Part shown: piece by piece, positions 5,847 through 17,547 of the stretch | Numbering within the stretch: position 1 is the stretch's first letter | Layout of the letters: each line of letters opens with the position of its first letter | Virus record (IMG/VR): IMGVR_UViG_3300033142_000314 | Coordinates: 1-31,010 of that record | Origin: a virus | DNA length: 31,010 bases | Reading direction: 5' to 3' (one strand) | Position numbers and translations under genes: made by a program | Notes under the pieces: generated by a model | What the model was told of the DNA's origin: nothing | Databases searched by the model: none | The model's input: the letters and a program-made list of their open reading frames with translations, nothing else

Positions 5847-8396
5847 TTATGCCTCCCACATCTCTAGGTTCATCGGGTCTTGCACTTCCACCTGCAGCGT
5901 AGCCGCATCGTCAGTGACCACCTCCAGCGTCATGGCGTCCTGCGCAGCCACCACGAACGTGAAGTCGTCACGCTGGAACTGGATGGCTGGGTCAAACACG
6001 ATGCCGCTACTGACCAGCGTGAGCACCAGCAGTATAGCTGCCACGGCCTGCCCTGCAATGGCCACCGCCCCCGTGGCAGCCAGGGTCATGGCCAGTATGG
6101 TCGGCGAAGCGTTGCCGCTCACATCCACCGACCCCGTAGCTATCAGGGTGGGTGCGAACAGCGTGTTGCTTGCGGTGCCGCCGACGACGACCTGGCCCGT
6201 AGCTGCCAGGGTTACCGCGAACAGGGTGGCCGCCAGGTCGCCGACCAAGTGCATGCCCGTAGCGGACAGTGTCATCACGAACAGCGTATTGCTGGCCGTA
6301 CCCTGTACCTGCACCGCCCCGGTAGCTGACAGGGTCATTGTCAGCAGCGTAGCGGCAGACGCGCCCTGTACCTGCACTGCACCCGTGGCCGCCAAGGTCA
6401 TGGCGAATATGGTGGTCGCGCTGGTGCCGATTATGTCATCGCTGGTGACCGAGCCGCTACTGGCTAGGGTCATCACGAACAGGGTAGTCGCTGACGTGCC
6501 TTGCACCTGGGCGGCAGCAGTGGCAACCAAGGTCACCACGAATAGCGTGTTCGCTGCGGTGGCCTGCACATCCACCGACCCGGTGGCTGCTAGCGTCATC
6601 ACGAATAGCGTTACAGCCAGGTCGCCTGTGCTGACGGTGCCTACGCTGCCGTCACTGGCCAGCGTCATCACGAAGATGGTTGTGGCGCTGTCGCCCTGCA
6701 CGTCCACGCTACCCGTGGCTGCCACAGTCATCGTGAACAGGGTGGCAGCAAGGTCGCCAGTGTAATGCCCGCCAGGCGCCTGCGCGGCCAGCGTCATCAC
6801 GAACAACGTGGTGGCCGACGTACCTTGCACCTGCACCGTACCCGCAGCCGTTAGGGCGACCACGAAGAGGGTGGTCGCGCTGGTGGCCTGGGCCTGCACA
6901 CTACCTGTACCGACGAGCGTCATGGTGAACAGCGTATTCGCTGCGGTCCCTTGCACCTGCACGCTACCAGTCGCGGCCAGCGTGACCACCAGCACGGTAG
7001 CTGCACCGTCGCCGGTTATCTGGTTGCCCACCTCACCCGTGGAGGCCAGCGTCATCACGAACAGTGTCGTTGCGCTGGTGCCCTGTACCTGGACCGCACC
7101 CGTGCTGGCTAGGGTCATCGTGAAGAGGGTGGCCGCACCGTGGCCTATGCGCTGCGTGGTGGTGCCGGTGGCAGCTAGGGTCATCGTGAATAGCGTGGTG
7201 GCACTGGTGCCTTGCACCTGCACGGCACCGCTACTGGCTAGCGTCACGGCCAGCAGGGTAGCTGCGCCCGCACCCTGCACCTGCACGCTGCCGGTGCTGG
7301 CAAGCGTCACCACGAACAGCGTACCCGCACCGTCGCCGGTGACCGTGGCTGCCACCACCGTGCCGGTGGCTGCTAGGGTCATCGTGAACAGCGTTGCGTC
7401 TAGGGCCTGGAGCGTGACGTTGTCGATCGAGTAGTCGTCGTTGTCACCAGCCTGCATCGCGAAAAAGTCGTCGTTCGTGGTGCCCGCCTCGGCATCGACG
7501 GAGTAGAAGCCTGTTCCCGTGATTGTGACAAGCTCGCCGTTGTCGTTCAAGTTGACGAATACATTTCCCTGGACCCACGCCGTCACATCAAATGTGCAGC
7601 GGTACGTCCGCCCACGAACGATGGTGAGCAGCACCGCAGGTTCCAATCCCGTCCCGTTCGCGGCGTCGAACGTCGCAACCCCGCCCGCGATGGTCCAGCC
7701 AGTGCCCGCGTCCCAACTACTCGGCACATCCATATCGCCGTCAACGACGAGGTCGGCCTGTATCAGCTCGCCCTGCACTTGGACGCTGCCAGTAGCAGCC
7801 AACGTCATGGTGAACAGCGTAGCCGCAAGGTCGCCGGTGTAGTGGCCGCCCGGTGCCTGGGCTGCGAGCGTCATCGTGAACAGGGTCGTCGCGCTGGTGC
7901 CCTGTACCTGCACGCTGCCGGTGGCCACCAGGGTGACAACGAACAGCGTACCCGCAGACGTGCCTTGTATCTGCGCAGCCCCGGTGGCCACCAGGGTCAT
8001 GGCCCACAGCGTGGTCGCGCTGTCACCCTGTACCTGGACTGACCCGGTGGCTGCCAAGGTAACGACGAACAGCGTAGCCGCACCAGCACCAGTTATGGGA
8101 GGGGCAATCACTGTGCCCGTAGACGACAGCGTGACAACGAACAACGTGGTGGCGCTAGTGCCTTGTACTTGCACGCCACCCGTGCTGACCAGCGTGACAA
8201 CGAACAGGGTAGCCGCCGACGCACCTTGCACCTGCACGGTGCCCGTGGCCACCACTGTCATGACGAACAGTGTGGTGGTGCTGGTGCCGCCAATGGCAGG
8301 CAGGGCCAGTGGCCCCAGCACACGCGGGCGTGCGTGCGGGTTAGCTGGCTGGCGTGGGTGGCCAGCCTGCCTGGGCGACGGGTACCGAACGCTCAT
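5847..8396 (-). CDS. Tandem-repeat fibre protein with an inserted carbohydrate-binding-like domain
   Basis: 849 residues from ATG 8396, preceded by AGAGG. A Pro/Arg-rich leader (1-36) is followed by about 30 copies of a unit of about 20 residues, typically SATTLFVMTLAATGSVQVQG, then a non-repeat end of about 50 residues (FDPAIQFQRDDFTFVVAAQD and beyond) rich in alternating hydrophobics. Each unit holds two short beta strands (TLFVMTL and SVQVQG) joined by an ATG turn, as expected for a beta-solenoid or fibrous trimer. Residues 211-332 break the pattern with an unrelated domain (see separate entry). The gene lies between small beta-rich structural genes in the fibre region, so a long tail fibre, spike or surface adhesin is the likely role. 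Repeats differ mostly at silent positions, which shows selection on the protein. I know no named family for this repeat. Confidence 0.85.
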   Translation of the reverse strand: MSVRYPSPRQAGHPRQPANPHARPRVLGPLALPAIGGTSTTTLFVMTVVATGTVQVQGASAATLFVVTLVSTGGVQVQGTSATTLFVVTLSSTGTVIAPPITGAGAATLFVVTLAATGSVQVQGDSATTLWAMTLVATGAAQIQGTSAGTLFVVTLVATGSVQVQGTSATTLFTMTLAAQAPGGHYTGDLAATLFTMTLAATGSVQVQGELIQADLVVDGDMDVPSSWDAGTGWTIAGGVATFDAANGTGLEPAVLLTIVRGRTYRCTFDVTAWVQGNVFVNLNDNGELVTITGTGFYSVDAEAGTTNDDFFAMQAGDNDDYSIDNVTLQALDATLFTMTLAATGTVVAATVTGDGAGTLFVVTLASTGSVQVQGAGAATLLAVTLASSGAVQVQGTSATTLFTMTLAATGTTTQRIGHGAATLFTMTLASTGAVQVQGTSATTLFVMTLASTGEVGNQITGDGAATVLVVTLAATGSVQVQGTAANTLFTMTLVGTGSVQAQATSATTLFVVALTAAGTVQVQGTSATTLFVMTLAAQAPGGHYTGDLAATLFTMTVAATGSVDVQGDSATTIFVMTLASDGSVGTVSTGDLAVTLFVMTLAATGSVDVQATAANTLFVVTLVATAAAQVQGTSATTLFVMTLASSGSVTSDDIIGTSATTIFAMTLAATGAVQVQGASAATLLTMTLSATGAVQVQGTASNTLFVMTLSATGMHLVGDLAATLFAVTLAATGQVVVGGTASNTLFAPTLIATGSVDVSGNASPTILAMTLAATGAVAIAGQAVAAILLVLTLVSSGIVFDPAIQFQRDDFTFVVAAQDAMTLEVVTDDAATLQVEVQDPMNLEMWEA
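5997..8285 (-). repeat. About 30 tandem coding repeats of about 60 bases
   Basis: The unit encodes T-L-F-x-x-T-L-x-x-T-G-x-V-Q-V-Q-G-x-S-A. Most copies are 20 codons; a few are 22-25 codons with a longer second strand or loop. Two distant copies share the longer unit LAAQAPGGHYTGDLAATLFT (near 6743-6804 and 7808-7870) while their DNA differs at many third positions. The array is interrupted once, at 7401-7766. Confidence 0.9.
7401..7766 (-). other. Inserted jelly-roll (CBM4/9-like) domain within the repeat fibre
   Basis: Residues 211-332 of the repeat protein read LVVDGDMDVPSSWDAGTGW, then GGVATFDAANG, RGRTYRCTFDV, and DYSIDNVTLQALD. An N-terminal x-N/DGDM-x-x-W segment, a GGVA-F strand, an RTYR-C-F strand and a closing D-x-SIDNVTL strand are the landmarks of family 4/9-type carbohydrate-binding beta-sandwich modules. 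Codon choice looks different from the flanking repeats (more TCG, GAC and AAC), which suggests the domain was added later. Sugar binding is inferred from family resemblance. Confidence 0.65.
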
Positions 8397-8407: not shown

Positions 8408-8848
8408 CTACTCGTCCCACTCGATGTAGGCTTGGCAGATCTGGCCCGTACCGTTGGCGACTAAGATGCCGACGCCGTTGCCGGTGCCAGGCTGGATCAC
8501 CAGGCCGGAATCGCCGAAGGTCCAGATGATGCCAGCGCCAATGGCCGCACCCAATACGCCAACCCGCAGCCCATCGCCCGATACGATGGTGGGGGTCACC
8601 GTATGCGTGGCGAACCCTGTCATCAGGGGTGGCGGGCCATCAGGGTCGTACTCGTTCTCGGTCAGCGCCGCGCCTTGGGTGCCCGTTGCGGTGAACCGCT
8701 TCACGGCCAACTCCACCGCTACCGCAGTGGTATTGAAGACGCCTATCTCCCTTATGCGGCCACCGCTGGCAGCGGGGGCGTACAGGCTTATGATCGGCAG
8801 TATGGTGCTGCCTATCGCACAGCGGTCTGCTACGGTGAAACGTGCCAT
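8408..8848 (-). CDS. Beta-rich phage structural protein
   Basis: 146 residues from ATG 8848, with TAGGAGCA upstream. The sequence is a series of short beta strands (IREIGVFNTTAVAVELAVKR, GLRVGVLGAAIGAGIIWTF, GLVIQPGTGNGVGILVANG) ending in QAYIEWDE. This is the pattern of a compact beta-barrel/jelly-roll protein that many siphophages carry beside their fibre genes. It sits between the propeller protein and the repeat fibre, with about ten bases to each neighbour. It may be a virion decoration or fibre accessory protein. No catalytic motif is seen. Confidence 0.7.
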   Translation of the reverse strand: MARFTVADRCAIGSTILPIISLYAPAASGGRIREIGVFNTTAVAVELAVKRFTATGTQGAALTENEYDPDGPPPLMTGFATHTVTPTIVSGDGLRVGVLGAAIGAGIIWTFGDSGLVIQPGTGNGVGILVANGTGQICQAYIEWDE

Positions 8849-8857
8849 CAGTTGCTC

Positions 8858-10117
8858 CTATGCTGCTGGTTGAATTGGTGCCATGATAAGTTCTGCAACG
8901 GCTGCAGGGCCGCCACCTGCTATCTCAAACGAGATAACCCTAATGTCGTGGTCGCCGTCCTTATACGCCCACTCAATGCGAGTGGAGCCGCTCACATCCC
9001 TGGAGTGGTCCAGGTCTGCAAAGTTGCGGAGCATCGTGGTGACCTGATCGTAGTCGTCGGTTATGGCGCCTACGTCGGTCCAAGGTGCGGCGGTCCAGGT
9101 GTCGCCCTGGTCGGTGGACGTAGCGCGCTTCCATTGCTGAGTGGCCGCGATAGCGTCCACCGCGATGACGTTTAGCTCATCATCGGCCTCATTCCACCAA
9201 CCCATAATAATAGGGCTCACGTCGTCGTCGTTGAAGTCAGCGTTCATGCTGTCTTCTTGCAGCGTTGGGCTTGCCTCCGATATGCAACGGACCCAGATGT
9301 GCTCCCGCGAGAATGAGCCGTACCCGTAGATCGCGGCTATCTCCGCTGACGCCCCCCCTTCTATGGGGATCGCGGGGGCAATCTCAAACGCACTCAGCTT
9401 TGGGTGTTGCGCGCCTGTGTTGGTGAGCGTCAGGGTTACTAAGTTGTCTCGGGTCTGTATGGTGTTCCATGAAAAGTGGCGGGCGGTAGCGTTGGTGATT
9501 GGACAGAACAGATGGAACCGCTGGCCAGCGGGGCTCCACGCCCCCTGGAGCCCTTGCACGCTTGTGTCCGGGGCGCCGTCTGCGTTGCCTTCGTTCACCC
9601 AGCCACCACCTGACGTCCAGGTCCAGAGGTCGAACCGGATCTGGGGCTGGCCCATGACGTTGGCGGTGTCGCTATACAGGACCGCGTATAACGTGCTGTT
9701 GATATCGTCCCAACCGAACGCGCCGGACCGGGAGGGGTCAGAAGTGTCGCGGTCTATGGTCGTTATGAGGGTGGCTGCTGCATCCCACGCATCCGTGGAG
9801 CAGTCATATTCCCGGTGGAAAATCTCCCTTGTGGCGGTCATTCCGGTGCCAAGGGACTCGGCATAGAAACAGTGAATAGTGTTGCCCACAAGGATGGCGT
9901 TTGCGATGGCTGCGCCACTGCCGCCAGGCACCGCCCACGTCTCCTCCAGCGCGTAAGTGCCTCCAACCGTGGATGCCTTGTGAATCTCAATTTCATGGCC
10001 GCCCGAGATTTGTCGGATGGCGATGTAGAAGGAGCCGTTGTCGGCCTGCCCACCCGCTAACGGACCCGTCTGGGATGACGTGCCAGCGAGGACTAGGGCA
10101 TCAACTTTAATGGTCAT
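8858..10117 (-). CDS. Sialidase-like beta-propeller protein with an Asp-box
   Basis: 419 residues from ATG 10117, which overlaps the stop of the methyltransferase-like gene (ATGA). The protein is built of repeated WD-sized beta blades. A clear Asp-box, S-T-D-Q-G-D-T-W, lies at 334-341, and a degenerate one (STVGGTYALEETW) at 49-61; further blade-like segments occur near 160-180 and 300-330. This fits a sialidase/BNR-type propeller, a fold that phages use to bind or cleave surface glycans. No full sialidase active site (arginine triad, Tyr/Glu pair) can be assigned by eye, so binding is safer than catalysis. The base composition looks less GC-rich than the tail genes, hinting at later acquisition. 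Position in the fibre region supports a receptor-binding role. Confidence 0.7.
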   Translation of the reverse strand: MTIKVDALVLAGTSSQTGPLAGGQADNGSFYIAIRQISGGHEIEIHKASTVGGTYALEETWAVPGGSGAAIANAILVGNTIHCFYAESLGTGMTATREIFHREYDCSTDAWDAAATLITTIDRDTSDPSRSGAFGWDDINSTLYAVLYSDTANVMGQPQIRFDLWTWTSGGGWVNEGNADGAPDTSVQGLQGAWSPAGQRFHLFCPITNATARHFSWNTIQTRDNLVTLTLTNTGAQHPKLSAFEIAPAIPIEGGASAEIAAIYGYGSFSREHIWVRCISEASPTLQEDSMNADFNDDDVSPIIMGWWNEADDELNVIAVDAIAATQQWKRATSTDQGDTWTAAPWTDVGAITDDYDQVTTMLRNFADLDHSRDVSGSTRIEWAYKDGDHDIRVISFEIAGGGPAAVAELIMAPIQPAA

Positions 10118-10773
10118 GCTGGCACCGCCCCCTGCGGGGTCATCCACGAATGCGCAGGCAGCAAAGCCGCCCACTCGTCAATCGTCGCCTTCCAGTTGAT
10201 GTCAGGGTCACCGCTGCCAGGCTCGCCGATTGTCGTCATGTGAACTACTCGGGACACGTCGCGGCTGTCCAGGAATCCCTCGAGCACCGGGGCCATAGCA
10301 ACCACATCAACGTCGTCGTAGCACGAAACAACATCCTCCGTCACCACCCACGCAAAGTTGCGTGAGCCAGTTGCAGAAATAAGCTCGTCGGGTGCACGGG
10401 CGTGGCGAAAGTCACGGGCCACCACTACGGATTCAGGGTCGGCCTCAGTCGGCATCATAGACGCAATCCACGCCGAACTGTCGATTCCGTAGACATTCTG
10501 GAAGCCCGCCGCCTTAGCTGCTTCTATCAGGAACCCGAACGCGCACCCAACGACAAGCACCCGGTCACCCCGCGCAATCCCGTGGAGGCGCGTGAGGCGA
10601 GCCCAACGCCACTTGAACAACTCCAACTCGTCGGTGCGGAAGTCGCCGAACCCGCGCCCGAGACCTATGCGTGAGTAGTGAAACCACACACCGCGCTGAG
10701 GGTGCGCCGGGTCTGTGATCCTGGTGCGATAGAACCGATCGAACTCGGTTTGCGTCCACGTCTCAACCGGCAT
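10114..10773 (-). CDS. Class I S-adenosylmethionine-dependent methyltransferase-like protein
   Basis: 219 residues from ATG 10773; an in-frame ATG at 10806 is an alternative, and neither has a strong ribosome-binding site. Motif I is clear: RVLVVGCAFGFLIEAAKAAG at 71-90, followed by the acidic end of strand 2, YGID (D98), which contacts the ribose of the cofactor. A motif like post-strand-4 (VVTEDVVSCYDD, 143-154) holds the usual acidic/hydrophobic pattern. This is the core of a Rossmann-fold methyltransferase. The substrate cannot be read: no N6-adenine DPPY or cytosine PC motif is present, so a DNA methylase is unlikely, and sugar or small-molecule methylation is more plausible next to a sulfotransferase. 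The start overlaps the sulfotransferase end by 11 bases, and the end overlaps the propeller start. Confidence 0.85.
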   Translation of the reverse strand: MPVETWTQTEFDRFYRTRITDPAHPQRGVWFHYSRIGLGRGFGDFRTDELELFKWRWARLTRLHGIARGDRVLVVGCAFGFLIEAAKAAGFQNVYGIDSSAWIASMMPTEADPESVVVARDFRHARAPDELISATGSRNFAWVVTEDVVSCYDDVDVVAMAPVLEGFLDSRDVSRVVHMTTIGEPGSGDPDINWKATIDEWAALLPAHSWMTPQGAVPA

Positions 10774-11284
10774 ACGTGTACCCGTACCTTTCCACGTCAG
10801 CAGCATAGAAGCTGCCCACCCGGTTGCGAAGCTCTGGCGTGTAGTAGTGGTCGCAGGGTAGGCGCTCCTGATAGTGCACATGCGGCAGCGCCTTGGGGCA
10901 CTCCACGCCGAACAGGTAGGCGATGACGTGGGCATGCTCCAGCAGCCGCTCGAAGCGGCCCACGTAGTGCGCGCCCTGCAGAAAGTGCGCACAGGGTGCT
11001 GCAATGGGCACCGCCTGCATGGGGCCTGCCACCCAGTCGGCAAAGCTGCTGGCCCGGTGGGCTCGCCTGTGGTGCTCGTACAGGCTTATAGCCCTGTCCC
11101 ATGGGTTGCGCGCCATGCCTATGACAAGTCGGTTGTCGCCGTCCCGGCCAGCATGGTAGGGCCTGTGCCCGGTAGTTAGGGGCGCTGCCAGCCCAAGGGC
11201 TTGACGCAGCGTGCCCCCGCCCGCGCGCGGTACGTGCACGAACAGGGGCTCAAGCTGCAGCGCGGGGGGTGCCGCGACGGGCAC
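10763..11284 (-). CDS. Sulfotransferase-like protein (family 2, carbohydrate sulfotransferase type)
   Basis: 173 residues if started at GTG 11284, one base after the stop of the upstream gene; the frame runs further up but only as antisense-like text without a ribosome-binding site. The 5'-phosphosulfate loop is LFVHVPRAGGGTL (14-26), and the 3'-phosphate motif is RNPWDRAIS (59-67), with R59 and S67 in the expected places. YVGRFERLLEH (107-117) and the end block with YYTPELRNRV and DVERYGYTY match Sulfotransfer_2 proteins. These use PAPS to sulfate sugar hydroxyls. The canonical Lys of the first loop (PKTGG) is Arg20 here, so activity should be tested. Sulfotransferases are rare in phages. 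The gene is embedded in the fibre region and overlaps the methyltransferase-like gene, so the two probably act on one substrate, perhaps a virion or host surface glycan. Confidence 0.85.
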   Translation of the reverse strand: MPVAAPPALQLEPLFVHVPRAGGGTLRQALGLAAPLTTGHRPYHAGRDGDNRLVIGMARNPWDRAISLYEHHRRAHRASSFADWVAGPMQAVPIAAPCAHFLQGAHYVGRFERLLEHAHVIAYLFGVECPKALPHVHYQERLPCDHYYTPELRNRVGSFYAADVERYGYTYAG

Positions 11285-11285
11285 C

Positions 11286-11651
11286 TTATCCGCCGTCTTG
11301 GTCGGGAGTCCACTTCTTGGGTGGCTCAAACGACGTCGCGTCCCGCATGGCCTCGCGAAAGTTATCGAAGCCCCCACCAATGGGCGGCAGCTTTGCGCCC
11401 TCCTCCTTGGCGGCTGCAATGCGCGCACGCATCTCCTCCTCGCCTTGCGTAAGCGCACGCATGCGCGACGTGGCCTCCAGGTACGCCAGGGTGACCAGGC
11501 TTTCGCCGCCATACCCTGTGCGCGTAAAGGCCTCAAGCAGTTGGTCTAGTTCCTTGGTGGTACCAGCCACCGCGAAGGCCGTCATCTTCGCGACCTGCGA
11601 ACTGTTCTCTGCGTTTAGCCTGCGTATCCGTACTTCCCTGCCTTCGGCCAT
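11286..11651 (-). CDS. Small helical protein of unknown function
   Basis: 121 residues from ATG 11651, with GGAG eight bases upstream. The predicted structure is mostly helical (ELDQLLEAFTRTGYGGESLV, EEEMRARIAAAKEEGA) with a Pro/Gly-rich C-terminal tail (PKKWTPDQDGG). It ends one base before the GTG of the sulfotransferase gene, so they are likely co-translated. No family is recognised. A chaperone or trimerisation factor for a fibre is possible by position only. Confidence 0.75.
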   Translation of the reverse strand: MAEGREVRIRRLNAENSSQVAKMTAFAVAGTTKELDQLLEAFTRTGYGGESLVTLAYLEATSRMRALTQGEEEMRARIAAAKEEGAKLPPIGGGFDNFREAMRDATSFEPPKKWTPDQDGG

Positions 11652-11689: not shown

Positions 11690-12112
11690 TTAGATGCTGA
11701 ACGTCCAGGTGTTGATGGTGACCTGCTGCCCGACGGCGATGGTGGTGTTGTCCAGGTCCAGGTCGCCCGACCCCTGGCCCACCGTGCCTTCGATGCGCTC
11801 GTCCGTGCTGCCCGTGGCGCCGTCAGCGTCGCCGGACTGCTTCATCCGGAAGTGCGCCGCCGTGCCCGCAGCATTCGCGCTCGTGTCCTCCCAGGTGCCC
11901 GCCTTGGCAATGCTGGGGCTGGCGGCAGCCGCGAACGCGTCCGCTGGCAGCGTGATCTGCGCCAGCAGCGTGCCACCCACAGCAGCGTTGGGGCCAGGCG
12001 CAGCGCCCGTGCGGATATCCAGCGCCCCAGAGTCGAAGTTGATCCCAGCCAGCGAGTTGAAGGCGTGGTCCAGGAAGCTCTCTTTCATGAAATCCGATAG
12101 TGCGATGGCCAT
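11690..12112 (-). CDS. Beta-rich minor structural protein
   Basis: 140 residues from ATG 12112, with AGAGGAAA upstream. The start (SDFMKESFLDHAFN) is an amphipathic helix, followed by beta strands typical of short phage fibre or virion proteins: IDIRTGAAPGP-like and GGTLLAQITLPADAF segments, then a DLDLDNTTIAVGQQVTINTW end. The phrase GG-x-LLA-x-ITLPADAF occurs in small structural proteins encoded beside phage tail-fibre genes. It probably contributes to the tail tip or fibre; the exact part is unknown. Confidence 0.7.
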   Translation of the reverse strand: MAIALSDFMKESFLDHAFNSLAGINFDSGALDIRTGAAPGPNAAVGGTLLAQITLPADAFAAAASPSIAKAGTWEDTSANAAGTAAHFRMKQSGDADGATGSTDERIEGTVGQGSGDLDLDNTTIAVGQQVTINTWTFSI

Positions 12113-12796: not shown

Positions 12797-13402
12797 TTAG
12801 GGTGCTGTCACTACTAAGCGTATCATGGTCACTTCAATGTCTGCCTCGTCGCCACCGTCGGCCACACAGGCCCGCCCCACTATGCGCACGCGCATGTCGG
12901 TGGTGTCGGTTAGCAGGTCGTTCTTCTCCGACGTGGTCAGCACTAGCTGCTTAGTTGCCATTGACGTGGACAAGGATACAGCCAAGTCGCTGGCTATGGC
13001 ACCACCGCTGCCCTGGTGCAGCTCTATGTCTACGTTGCCAGTAGGGGGTGACGTGTCGGCAAAGGTGTCCTTCACGCGCGCACGCACCTCCAGTATAAAC
13101 GACTCCGCCCCCGACGGCGTGCCCGTAAAGTCGGGGAAGTCCAGCACGAAATTCTGGTCATCCTGTGGGCTGCCGCATATAGCAGTGAACCTGCCACCGC
13201 CACCGCTTTCAGTGGTGATGCCCTCGGTGTCTGGTGTGACGCCGTCGTCTACGTTTTGGAATAGGTTGGTGTTATTGCCAAGCGTAGGCGTACCCAGCGG
13301 GTCATCAACCTTGATGTATATACCGTCGGTGCGGTCGGCGTTGACGTACAGGGTTTCCGTTATGGGCACCCGCTTCGGATACATGATTGGCGGATAAACC
13401 AT
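12797..13402 (-). CDS. Beta-sandwich fibre-region protein
   Basis: 201 residues from ATG 13402, which overlaps the stop of the hub gene (TGATG); a later in-frame ATG at 13384 is possible. The C-terminal half has a regular set of strands (SFILEVRARVKDTF, NVDIELHQGSGG, DMRVRIVGRA, DIEVTMIRLVV). The pattern L-x-VRAR ... V-x-IELHQG ... TDT-T-DMRVRI is common in phage structural and adhesin proteins with jelly-roll domains. It is probably a tail-tip or fibre accessory protein co-translated with the large hub/fibre. Confidence 0.75.
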   Translation of the reverse strand: MVYPPIMYPKRVPITETLYVNADRTDGIYIKVDDPLGTPTLGNNTNLFQNVDDGVTPDTEGITTESGGGGRFTAICGSPQDDQNFVLDFPDFTGTPSGAESFILEVRARVKDTFADTSPPTGNVDIELHQGSGGAIASDLAVSLSTSMATKQLVLTTSEKNDLLTDTTDMRVRIVGRACVADGGDEADIEVTMIRLVVTAP

Positions 13403-16400
13403 CAGACGGCTATCGCCTGGAACCACGAGCCGATGATGTCGCCTTCAATCTCCACGAACTGCACGATCGTCAGGTCGCCGATAACCTGCGGGAACTGCGG
13501 GATCTGGTTGTTCACCCAGTGGGTCACGCCTGTCCACGTCGTCCACTCAGCCGCCGCACTGGCCACGTCACGCACCTTAAGCGTATAACTGCCGCCAGCC
13601 TGCATGGCAGCAGCGTTGACGTTCATGGTGCGGCTACCGGCATTCGTTATCCACTTCACGTTCGAGCGGTCCCACGTGATGGTGGTCGCGCTTTCTGTCG
13701 CGTCTTCCGCGATGTAGAACTGCCCAGCATGCACAGACACTCGCCCCGTGGTGCTGGCAAGCCACTCAAGCTGCATTTTCTTCGCGCCCCTGACCGCGAA
13801 GCCTATGACCTCCGTGCTTACCCGGTACATTCCGTATCCAGCACCGGCAGACTGTTCACCCACCTGTAAGGCTGGGACTGTTTCGGTGCCGTCGCCGATA
13901 CGGACAGTCCCCGGAAACACGAACTCGCCAGTCTTGAATGTGCCAGACCCCACATAAGCTGCGGTGATGCTAGCCGCAGCCCACTGGCCTCCCCCGTTGA
14001 CCGCCAGCACCTGATTGAGACTGCCGAGCGCAGCGAACTGTAGGCTCGCCCCGTTGCCGATCAAGACCGCGTTGGCCGTCAGGGTGCTCGCCGCCGTGCC
14101 GCCGTTGGCGACAGACACCTGACCCACGAGGTCGCCAACGAGCAGATTGGACGACGCCCACGCAGTGCCGCTTGCGCGTAAGTAGTTGCCGGTCGTGGCG
14201 GCGGCGATCATCTGCACCGCGCCGGTACCGTTGCCTAGCAGCGCAGCGCCGGAGGTGAGCGAGGCGCGGCCCGTGCCACCGTACAGTGCCGTCAATGCGG
14301 CGGGTAGTTGGGTGACGCCCGCCGCCGTGAACACCCACTCATTCCGTGACGCCCAGTTGGTCTGCGTGTTGGACGCGATAATGACCGCCGCGTCCGCGAC
14401 CATGTACAGGTTCTCGGCTGAGGTAGCAGCCACGATTCCCGCGCCCGCCAGATTCGCAACCAGCGTATCACCTGCGGATATCATGATGGACGAGTCGGCG
14501 CCGATGCCGAGCCCGCCCTGGTCGGTGGTCTTGCGCAGCACACTGATGCCGCTGCCGCCCCAGTCCAGGAAGTTGTCGTTCGTGGCTGTGTTGGTAAAGT
14601 TGAGGGACGCGCTGTCCAGCGCGAGCGTGTCGGCGAACGTGAACGAACCCGAGAACGTGCTAGCGGTTATCTGGGTGGCGCTGTGCGTGTGGCTCGGCAG
14701 GTCGCCAGCCGTAATAGAAGCCCTGATCCATGCGCCGGAGGCGGACTTGACGAACGCACCGTCCGCGCCTGGAGCTAGGGGCGTCATGGCAGAGGCCCCC
14801 GCACCCACTAGCAGGTTACCTGCAGTCGGGTTAGATACGCCTGTGCCGCCGAAAGCCTCGTCTAGTATCCCGCTCGTGATGTCGCCAGCTGTGTGTACGT
14901 GCCCCAGCACGGCGATGGTGCTGACGGTGCCCGTGCCGTCCCGGAACTTCATGGTGGGGCCAGCTTCGCCCCATAGGGTGTGATAGCCAGCGGTGCCAGT
15001 GGGGTCGCCGGTCTCGTGTTGCAGTTGTAGCCGAGCGTTGAACTTCCACTGCGCGGTAACCGTCTCCGCTGCTGCCAGCCTAGCTAATAGGCTGCCGTCC
15101 GTGATCTGGCTCTCCAGCACCGTAAGCGCAGCCTCGTGCTGGGTCACGGCGCTTGCTGCTATGTCGCTGTCCTGGATGGTGCTGCGTACCCACGCGCTGC
15201 CGCTGCTGCGCACAAAGCCACCAGCAGTGCTGAAGGCTAGCTGCGTCATGGCACTAGCCCCTGCCCCGACCAGCAGGTTACCCACAGTCGGCGAGGCCAC
15301 GCCTGTGCCGCCCTGTGCCACCACCAGCACACCACTGGTGATGTCGGCCGCCGAGTGCGCGTGCCCTACTGCGGATATGCCAGCCTCGGCCAACGTGCGG
15401 TTGATCCAATCGCCTGCCGACTTCGCCAGTATCTCGCCCGTACCTACGGCCGATATCGTTACGTCAGTGAGCCCGCCCAGGGTACTGCCTGCTGCCGGGG
15501 CGGCTAGCGTCACGGCGCCGCTGGCAGCTTGGGTCGCGGTTAGGCTGCTGGCCAGGTTGAGGTCGCGGACGGCGAACGCCTGCCCGGTGCTGTCTATAAC
15601 CCGCGCGCCGACGTTGTCGTAGTCGAAGAGGCTGCGGGTGAGGGTTGACCTAATCTGCCCAGCCGCGCCGCTGCCAGCTTCACCACCCGTGTCGTCATAG
15701 GGCGTCACGGTAACGAAGAAGCTGCCGTCGAATATGGTGGTGCCCGCGTCGTCTTGTGCAAGGAATGTCTGCGCCGCGCCCAAGCCATCCTCCAGCACAT
15801 GCACGAGCACGTCGGTGCCTGGGGTTACATCTTTGTCGTACTCGCGGTCGACAGTAGTGCTCGGCGGCGGCTGGTCCGCAGCCGTGTGTGGGCGGATGAA
15901 GCTGTAGACTACGTGTATGCTGCGGCACGATGCGCCGATCAGCAGCGATAGCTCACGCTCCCAGCCTTGCGCACCGCTGCTGCCACCACCCTCGTTGCCG
16001 GTGCTGCGTGCATCTTCGCCCAGGATGGTGACGTTGGGTGGCAGGGGGCTGGGGTGGTCGGTACCTGGCGGCGCGTCCTTCGTCGCCAGGCTGTCCAGCG
16101 TGTATGCTGTGGCATCGTACTCACGCAGCAGCACTTGGATCTCGCCGCTGTCAGGCGTCACGCCAATGGCTTCGACCCAGAACTCCTTCGCGGTCCAGCC
16201 AGGCGTGCTGTGCGTAACCTTTACCACGTCGCCGTGAGCCAGCTTCAGGGCTTCGCGCGTGGCGATCAGCAGGCAACCTGCATCGGCCCTGGTTTCCTTC
16301 AGCAGCGTCTGCGCGGTTTGCTCGGCCTGATACCTGTCGGTGCACAGGGGCAGGTCTATCTGCGCCTCGTTCAGTTGCCCGTTGTCTGCGGTCAGGAACC

Positions 16401-17547
16401 CGTTGGCAACCCCTGGCGCCGGGAACTGCACCTCGTCTGTCTGATAGTCGCCGTCCGCGTCCACATAGGTGGCCGCCATGACATTGGGGGCCTCGCGCGC
16501 ACCCGCACGCCAGAACTCCGAGAAGCCCAGGATGTTGGTTTCGTTTAGCTCAAACGTCTCCGCAGCTTGTACGCGGTGGATGACGAAGCGGTACACGCCC
16601 CCCTCGTCCACTACCCTGCCTCTGCATGTGGATAAGATGCGGTCCAGGTTCGCTTGCTGCCCAAGCGCGGGGTCGATGAACCCATTCAGTGTGAACCTTT
16701 GCTGGGTGCCACCCGGCACCGCTGGGGTCTCTTCGCAGTAGTTGGCTTCGGTCGTCACCGATGACGCCAGGATGTTGGCGTCGGGGATACCCATACCATA
16801 CCGCGTGGAGCGCATGAAGTCACGCGCCGCCAGGATGGGGTTCTGCCCGTTCTGCCAGGTGGTGTCAGCCACGGGGCGTGGGTCGTGTACCTGGACGCCG
16901 CGCGCCAGGGCCGTGACCTTGGGCACCCCGCCTGGCCAGGCTTCGTCGTTCAGATACATCCAGAGCACTAGGTACTGGACGCCCATGCCCTCGTGCGTGC
17001 TGTCGTACGCAGTGAACACGCTGTCCAGTTCCGAGTCCACCACCTGGCTGTCAGCGCCGCTGTGCAGGCCATACTTCAGCCACTGGTCTACACCGAAGGT
17101 ACCCCCACCTGCAGGCCGCCATGGAGGCTGGATGCTGGACCCCGTAACGGGCTCGCTCTCGTACACCGGGACCTGGATGGCCAAGGTGTCATTGAAGTAG
17201 ATGGAGCCGATCGGGCCGCAGCCGCCGCCGTCCTCACCCGCCAAATTGAACGCCACCACCATGACCAGGACGTTGGGGTCAGTGGGGCTGTTGCGGATAT
17301 CCAGCACCTTGGCCCCAATGACCGTTTCGCCATACACCACAGGCAGGCTGGCGTCGCTGCCGCTAACCTGCGCATTGACGTTGCGTTGCCTGTTGGGCAC
17401 TTCACTTGGTGCGCCTGGGCGTCTGCGGAATGCGTACTGCAGCGCGGCCCCTGCCAGGAATATGCCAGCCCCTACCCAGCCGCCCATGGCAAGGCCCACC
17501 ACGCCCGCCACCGAGCCCACAAAGCGCCCGAAACCGCTGTCAGCCAT
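13402..17547 (-). CDS. Tail hub and fibre protein (gpJ-like)
   Basis: 1381 residues from ATG 17547, with GGAGG ten bases upstream. The N-terminal 40 residues are hydrophobic (VGAGIFLAGAALQYAF), as in many tail-tip hubs. Residues 50-530 form the conserved hub (SDASLPVVYGETVIGAKVLD, then YGMGIPDANIL and DGDYQTDEV regions), the counterpart of lambda gpJ and of the tail-tip protein of related siphophages. An Ig-like part follows to about 660. The C-terminal half is fibre: three HxH-containing units (H729/H731, H883/H885, H953/H955), GGTG repeats (746, 900, 1090 and a variant at 1149), and a final domain to 1381. Paired histidines in phage fibres can coordinate metal along the trimer axis. The protein anchors the tail tip and contacts the host. 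The DNA after about 14700 looks more evenly composed, consistent with fibre exchange. Confidence 0.9.
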   Translation of the reverse strand: MADSGFGRFVGSVAGVVGLAMGGWVGAGIFLAGAALQYAFRRRPGAPSEVPNRQRNVNAQVSGSDASLPVVYGETVIGAKVLDIRNSPTDPNVLVMVVAFNLAGEDGGGCGPIGSIYFNDTLAIQVPVYESEPVTGSSIQPPWRPAGGGTFGVDQWLKYGLHSGADSQVVDSELDSVFTAYDSTHEGMGVQYLVLWMYLNDEAWPGGVPKVTALARGVQVHDPRPVADTTWQNGQNPILAARDFMRSTRYGMGIPDANILASSVTTEANYCEETPAVPGGTQQRFTLNGFIDPALGQQANLDRILSTCRGRVVDEGGVYRFVIHRVQAAETFELNETNILGFSEFWRAGAREAPNVMAATYVDADGDYQTDEVQFPAPGVANGFLTADNGQLNEAQIDLPLCTDRYQAEQTAQTLLKETRADAGCLLIATREALKLAHGDVVKVTHSTPGWTAKEFWVEAIGVTPDSGEIQVLLREYDATAYTLDSLATKDAPPGTDHPSPLPPNVTILGEDARSTGNEGGGSSGAQGWERELSLLIGASCRSIHVVYSFIRPHTAADQPPPSTTVDREYDKDVTPGTDVLVHVLEDGLGAAQTFLAQDDAGTTIFDGSFFVTVTPYDDTGGEAGSGAAGQIRSTLTRSLFDYDNVGARVIDSTGQAFAVRDLNLASSLTATQAASGAVTLAAPAAGSTLGGLTDVTISAVGTGEILAKSAGDWINRTLAEAGISAVGHAHSAADITSGVLVVAQGGTGVASPTVGNLLVGAGASAMTQLAFSTAGGFVRSSGSAWVRSTIQDSDIAASAVTQHEAALTVLESQITDGSLLARLAAAETVTAQWKFNARLQLQHETGDPTGTAGYHTLWGEAGPTMKFRDGTGTVSTIAVLGHVHTAGDITSGILDEAFGGTGVSNPTAGNLLVGAGASAMTPLAPGADGAFVKSASGAWIRASITAGDLPSHTHSATQITASTFSGSFTFADTLALDSASLNFTNTATNDNFLDWGGSGISVLRKTTDQGGLGIGADSSIMISAGDTLVANLAGAGIVAATSAENLYMVADAAVIIASNTQTNWASRNEWVFTAAGVTQLPAALTALYGGTGRASLTSGAALLGNGTGAVQMIAAATTGNYLRASGTAWASSNLLVGDLVGQVSVANGGTAASTLTANAVLIGNGASLQFAALGSLNQVLAVNGGGQWAAASITAAYVGSGTFKTGEFVFPGTVRIGDGTETVPALQVGEQSAGAGYGMYRVSTEVIGFAVRGAKKMQLEWLASTTGRVSVHAGQFYIAEDATESATTITWDRSNVKWITNAGSRTMNVNAAAMQAGGSYTLKVRDVASAAAEWTTWTGVTHWVNNQIPQFPQVIGDLTIVQFVEIEGDIIGSWFQAIAV

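Follow-up and report, generated by a model that had tools for sequence, protein, structure and literature searches.

The window analyzed here, a 31,010-bp fragment of a virus from IMG/VR, carries three consecutive minus-strand genes coding for a sulfotransferase (ST, P0004), a methyltransferase (MT, P0005) and a beta-propeller protein (P0006). Comparison with relatives reveals that the methyltransferase and the propeller form a strong unit of near-obligate pairing, which was not foreseen by an earlier sequence-only reading of this DNA, and that the sulfotransferase is an optional partner of this pair. It is tentatively proposed, at a little under an even chance, that these late enzymes decorate glycans on the phage's own fibre or propeller proteins.

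The fragment has no end repeats and the rest of the genome is missing. According to profile matches and tblastn, the minus strand of the window is an ordinary siphovirus head-tail (late) operon. Its head part runs in the order large terminase C-terminus (assigned by reading of the sequence), portal (assigned through tblastn relatives), head protease, major capsid protein, head-tail adaptor, head closure, neck and terminator proteins. The tail part consists of the major tail proteins, chaperone, tape measure protein, distal tail protein and the tail-tip protein J (positions 13402-17547, minus strand; phrog_5616 with 1.3e-39 and phrog_31 with 3.5e-37). Between J and the cassette are located a 209-aa ORF, a virion structural protein (11690-12112, minus strand; phrog_3758, 3.3e-20) and a 121-aa ORF. 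The three genes had been said to interrupt the structural genes, and they do lie inside this head-tail operon, downstream of J and of the phrog_3758 virion gene. A near-identical phage (99.6%) from another metagenome, L002 (IMGVR_UViG_3300033155_000266), was found by a capsid search; its contig stops within J and is silent on the trio.

Directly 3' of the propeller gene there is a 146-aa ORF (8408-8848, minus strand), which has no family match and probably belongs to the same operon as the cassette. It is followed by an 849-aa protein (5847-8396, minus strand) recognized by repeat spacing and composition, with 18% Thr and at least 24 copies of a repeat of about 21 residues (ATLFVMTLAATGSVQVQGTS). 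This protein, coded by a gene of its own, is a candidate fibre stalk; in relatives, repeat stalks form one protein with the propeller, and its layout would be analogous to theirs. When the profile of its repeats was compared with the stalks of relatives, a homologous stalk was not found. At approximately residues 206-330 the repeats are broken by a stretch that resembles a carbohydrate-binding module, as judged by eye only. Two further minus-strand genes were observed towards the far end of the fragment: a Radical SAM/SPASM protein (36-1040; Pfam SPASM 1.1e-10, Radical_SAM 3.7e-10), for which the best NCBIfam scores, to peptide and cofactor maturases, all stay under the cut-offs, and a 266-aa ORF (1149-1949) with Lys/Ala-rich, histone-H1-like stretches (KKRATKKAAAKKPAAKK).

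The three minus-strand ORFs of the cassette fill exactly the span 8858-11284. Their start and stop codons overlap as claimed previously: the ST and MT genes share 11 nt, and the MT stop and the propeller start share the four nucleotides ATGA. The ST gene starts with GTG at 11284, one base past the stop of the ORF 11286-11651. A lower GC content had also been suggested for the whole set. This does not hold for ST (67.0%); the values for MT (61.5%) and the propeller (59.4%) are lower, but they are matched by some structural genes, for example TerL (60.8%) and the 209-aa structural ORF (58.1%). The codon use of ST is ordinary, while MT and the propeller are the most deviant. Since ST differs from the other two genes in both GC content and codon use, the trio is not one compositional block, and a recent joint acquisition of the three genes is ruled out by the same difference. 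The identities given by the sequence-only reading (sulfotransferase, class I methyltransferase and propeller) are right by profile and fold, and the cofactor motifs of ST and MT are intact. Queries with the single ST, MT and propeller proteins against phage records and IMG/VR returned zero relatives, so that profiles were required.

The sulfotransferase (10763-11284, minus strand, 173 aa) is Sulfotransfer_2-like and is assigned by its match to phrog_3347 (galactose-3-O-sulfotransferase, E 9.4e-8) and by its profile relatives. Its scores against Pfam Sulfotransfer_1/2 are below the cut-offs (14.9 bits for PF03567, with a cut-off of 22 bits); the PF03567 cut-off is exceeded by viral relatives aligned to it, for example L012. 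With a three-sequence profile (A1), 157 viral relatives were confirmed, of which 80 were kept. The 3'-phosphate-binding motif RNPWDRAIS (residues 59-67, positions 11084-11110, minus strand) is conserved in alignments A1 and A7, and the 5'-phosphosulfate loop HVPRAGGGTL corresponds to residues 17-26. Residues R59, N60, P61, S67 and E112 are invariant across the eight aligned phage sulfotransferases. The protein keeps the PAPS-binding motifs, and sulfation of a carbohydrate is predicted. The function of phage sulfotransferases has been described as unclear (PMC10580990).

The methyltransferase (10114-10773, minus strand, 219 aa, ATG start at 10773) belongs to the class I S-adenosylmethionine-dependent enzymes (phrog_27380, E 4.6e-6). 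Motif I is found in the VVGCAFG region (residues 72-80, positions 10534-10560, minus strand), defined by conservation in relatives, and is followed by the acidic GID98; residues G76, C77, A78, G80 and D98 are invariant in relatives. Pairwise comparison with the MT of L094 gives an E-value of 2e-9. The score of P0005 against a held-out profile of the propeller-linked viral MT clade is 34 bits, compared with 58-99 bits for the chromosomal outgroup and 288-323 bits for the members, and in the MT tree it forms a long unplaced branch. By these scores, the divergence of the window MT is too great for an assignment to the propeller-linked clade. Its tie to this clade follows from the gene order and from the homology of P0006.

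The propeller protein (8858-10117, minus strand, 419 aa, ATG start at 10117) was recognized first by synteny: in the MT relatives L092 and L094, the gene for a large propeller-like tail protein begins no more than 2 nt after the MT gene. P0006 has zero matches in the family libraries, a first scan of the contigs with it gave nothing, and pairwise BLAST against the propellers of relatives also gave nothing, the match being seen by profile only. Against a held-out profile of five propeller sequences P0006 scores 20.9 bits, compared with 9.7 bits for the best of about 3,500 shuffles and 8.9 bits for the best non-propeller ORF; with a held-out profile of eight sequences the score is 25.2 bits, compared with 12.7 bits for the best of about 3,500 shuffles. 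The profile match spans only about the first two blades. One clear Asp-box (S/T-x-D-x-G-x-x-W), STDQGDTWT, is present at residues 334-342 (positions 9092-9118, minus strand), and the others are degenerate.

The AF2 model of P0006 from the single sequence has a pLDDT of 34, and the model from 14 sequences has a pLDDT of 53 and a pTM of 0.53, with four-stranded units along the chain. In the N-terminal blades most values are 55-90; the C-terminal half is of low confidence, which limits the fold call. The structures matched to the model by Foldseek and VIA-align are propellers, the best of them sialidases and related glycoside hydrolases (4irt, Z 14.9 at about 9% identity; other sialidases 13-14); propeller lectins are also matched in fold. 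The top BFVD hit is a short tail fibre protein, and the propeller-family profile weakly matches Sialidase B in the PDB (E 0.0036). P0006 is taken as a propeller of sialidase-like fold that probably serves as an adhesin or fibre domain, and it is a predicted virion or tail protein.

The clearest result of the comparison is the pairing of MT and propeller. In all eight distinct members of the viral MT clade (288-323 bits: L094, L092, L107, which equals L100, L099, L118, L120, L121 and L150), a propeller ORF starts from -1 to +3 nt from the MT stop, whereas no propeller was found near any of the 79 chromosomal MT relatives (58-99 bits). Six of the eight members (L094, L092, L118, L120, L121 and L150) were reached via MT alone, although the profile used in part of these searches included two MTs found through propellers. 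The window fits the gene order of the clade, with the propeller gene immediately 3' of MT and the ATGA overlap. A looser case is L122, in which a divergent MT is followed by one intervening gene and then by a propeller scoring 48 bits. Propellers without MT are found in L103, L104, L106, L108 and others, which means that the dependence is one-way: an MT of the clade comes with a propeller, and not the reverse. The propeller proteins of relatives are mostly long, repeat-stalked and located among capsid, connector or tail genes, and for these reasons they are probably virion proteins. One phage protein of 1,095 aa in L104 (4735-8022) has three tandem propeller domains. The contig that carries the MT-propeller pair of L150 (1113-5484) was assigned by binning to a Patescibacteria MAG and is probably a phage contig.

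Arrays of glycosyltransferase (GT) genes are located directly upstream of MT and propeller in L094 and in L107/L116. The propeller proteins of L094 and L107 have a Ser-rich SASISPSA stalk with 31-40% Ser; this stalk is absent from L092, L099, L103, L104 and L122, and P0006 is also without it. The joint presence of GT array and Ser-rich stalk in L094 and L107 is suggestive, the numbers being small. No GT was found near the pair in five loci (L092, L099, L118, L120 and L122). Very long Ser-rich stalks, with SASISPSASES or SISPSLSPS repeats and 31-40% Ser, were observed at L094 6506-10279, L107 5968-10380 and L101 2-6475.

The three genes had been regarded as one set, and this did not survive the comparison with relatives: ST is mostly found without MT and propeller, and MT and propeller are mostly found without ST. 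All three occur within about 3 kb in one other phage, L107/L116, the only one of the MT-propeller phages that has ST. Here the MT-propeller pair directly continues an array made up of ST, GT2s, an NAD epimerase, an RGP-type protein and further MTs. A different four-gene cassette with ST is located between the major capsid and head-tail adaptor genes of three divergent siphophages (L012 4854-7103, L013 512-3973 and L019 4782-7142); it contains a sialyltransferase/MptE-like gene, Methyltransf_24, Sulfotransfer_2 and the GT phrog_1962. At several further ST loci an MT is found no more than about 1.5 kb away, a count that is incomplete because it was made with one MT model; Methyltransf_23 alone undercounts the ST-MT neighbours and missed the MT of L012. 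Both combinations, MT with propeller and ST with MT, thus recur in structural operons. These neighbourhoods, with GT, sugar epimerase and sialyltransferase-like genes, fit the earlier suggestion that glycans or virion proteins are the substrates of ST and MT.

The proposed mechanism is as follows. The three genes would be read late, along with the tail genes. Both enzymes would act in the host cytoplasm, ST transferring sulfate from PAPS and MT a methyl group from S-adenosylmethionine to sugar hydroxyls on the phage's own fibre proteins. The acceptor could be the propeller, the neighbouring stalk of 21-aa repeats, or both, and the propeller, with its sialidase-like fold, would serve as an adhesin or tail-fibre domain. 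The altered fibre surface might tune adsorption or protect the fibre. A role on the phage's own fibres is preferred because of the late-operon position, the tight link between MT and a virion-type propeller, with the pairing seen in eight of eight clade members against none of 79 chromosomal relatives, and the GT and epimerase company of both ST and MT. The GT arrays with Ser-rich stalks of L094 and L107, the L012/L013/L019 cassette and a precedent in phage Corndog, described below, point in the same direction. On the other side, no GT was found among the scanned genes of this 31-kb fragment, so that the acceptor sugar would have to be supplied by the host or by the part of the genome outside it. 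Further points against are that P0005 scores only 34 bits, below the chromosomal MTs, and is unplaced, that most MT-propeller phages lack ST, that five of the pairs have no GT nearby, and that P0006 lacks the Ser-rich stalk.

The adjacency of MT and propeller could also mean a dedicated pair of enzyme and substrate, in which the direct target of MT, and possibly of ST, is not a sugar but the amino-acid side chains of the propeller protein. The coupled start and stop codons, which are also found in phages with no GT detected nearby (L092, L099, L118 and L120), and the one-way dependence would agree with this. However, distant phage relatives of MT adjoin GT, carbamoyltransferase and UDP-sugar dehydrogenase genes, and the MT of L094 weakly matches a pseudaminic acid methylase model, so that direct protein modification is considered unlikely. 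A simpler possibility is that unrelated accessory genes were gathered by chance in a gene-dense late operon. The recurrence of the MT-propeller arrangement in eight divergent viral sequences, the divergent homology of P0006 to the very propellers found in this arrangement, and the recurrence of the trio in L107/L116 all make this improbable, although ST is unlike the other two in GC content and codon use and is mostly found without them, and P0005 could not be assigned to the propeller-linked clade.

The sequence-only reading left a choice between a change of the host glycan and decoration of the phage's own fibres, and the latter is the better supported half. Surface glycans are possible substrates of sulfotransferases and methyltransferases, and in fold the propeller resembles both sialidases and propeller lectins. 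The enzymes might therefore alter the host surface polysaccharide in infection, with a block of superinfection or a changed release as the result, and the propeller might bind that polysaccharide. This has a low likelihood in our estimate, since the genes are located in late structural operons of unrelated phages and not with early host-takeover genes, MT is tightly coupled to a virion-type gene, and known defence families are unmatched except for a weak mad2 match. The more specific ideas that the propeller recognizes the same glycan and that the set blocks other phages found no direct support.

Decoration of the virion may extend beyond this phage. It is possible, though rather doubtful, that a widespread self-decorating fibre module exists, in which translation of a dedicated MT is coupled to that of a virion propeller adhesin, with ST, GTs and an epimerase added in some phages; the fibre glycans would then be methylated and sulfated, and mucin-like where the stalk is Ser-rich. 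The neighbourhoods point to a concrete substrate for phage sulfotransferases, namely virion fibre or capsid glycans, and the strict pairing singles out an enzyme together with its likely target in eight viral sequences that are divergent. Sulfate and methyl groups on phage fibres, if true, would bear on adsorption and host range.

It remains to compare the cassette with known systems. P0004 shares with the phrog_3347/Sulfotransfer_2 phage sulfotransferases the profile match, the PAPS motifs and a C-terminal YYTPE..RV..FY..D..YGYT block; however, the viral members are mostly uncoupled to the MT-propeller pair, and P0004 itself is below the Pfam cut-off. P0006 shares with the sialidase/BNR (Asp-box) propellers the fold and one canonical Asp-box, but the identity is about 9% and P0006 is probably an adhesin or fibre domain. 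The cassette of L012, L013 and L019 resembles that of the window in having ST and MT in a siphovirus structural operon, and differs in its MT family, in having no propeller and in its position between capsid and adaptor. In mycobacteriophage Corndog (Cluster O), the O-methyltransferase gp35, the GTs gp36/37 and the GlcNAc-transferase gp38 are coded between portal and protease, and capsid modification by the enzymes of the gp35-gp38 region was proposed by the authors (PMC4351075). Capsid glycans of the related phages Che8 and Rita are referred to in a citing statement of PMC11256854. Corndog and the window both have methyltransferase or glycan-type modification genes inside the head-tail operon, those of Corndog being proposed to modify a virion protein. 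In contrast, no sulfotransferase or propeller pairing is reported for Corndog, and its genes occupy the portal-protease site while the window cassette follows J. The trio had been put forward as an undescribed combination, and in the open-access literature searched neither the trio nor a description of the ST addition or of the MT-propeller pair was found. Modification genes in structural operons are thus already known from Corndog, and the addition of ST and the pairing of MT with a propeller are new within that literature.
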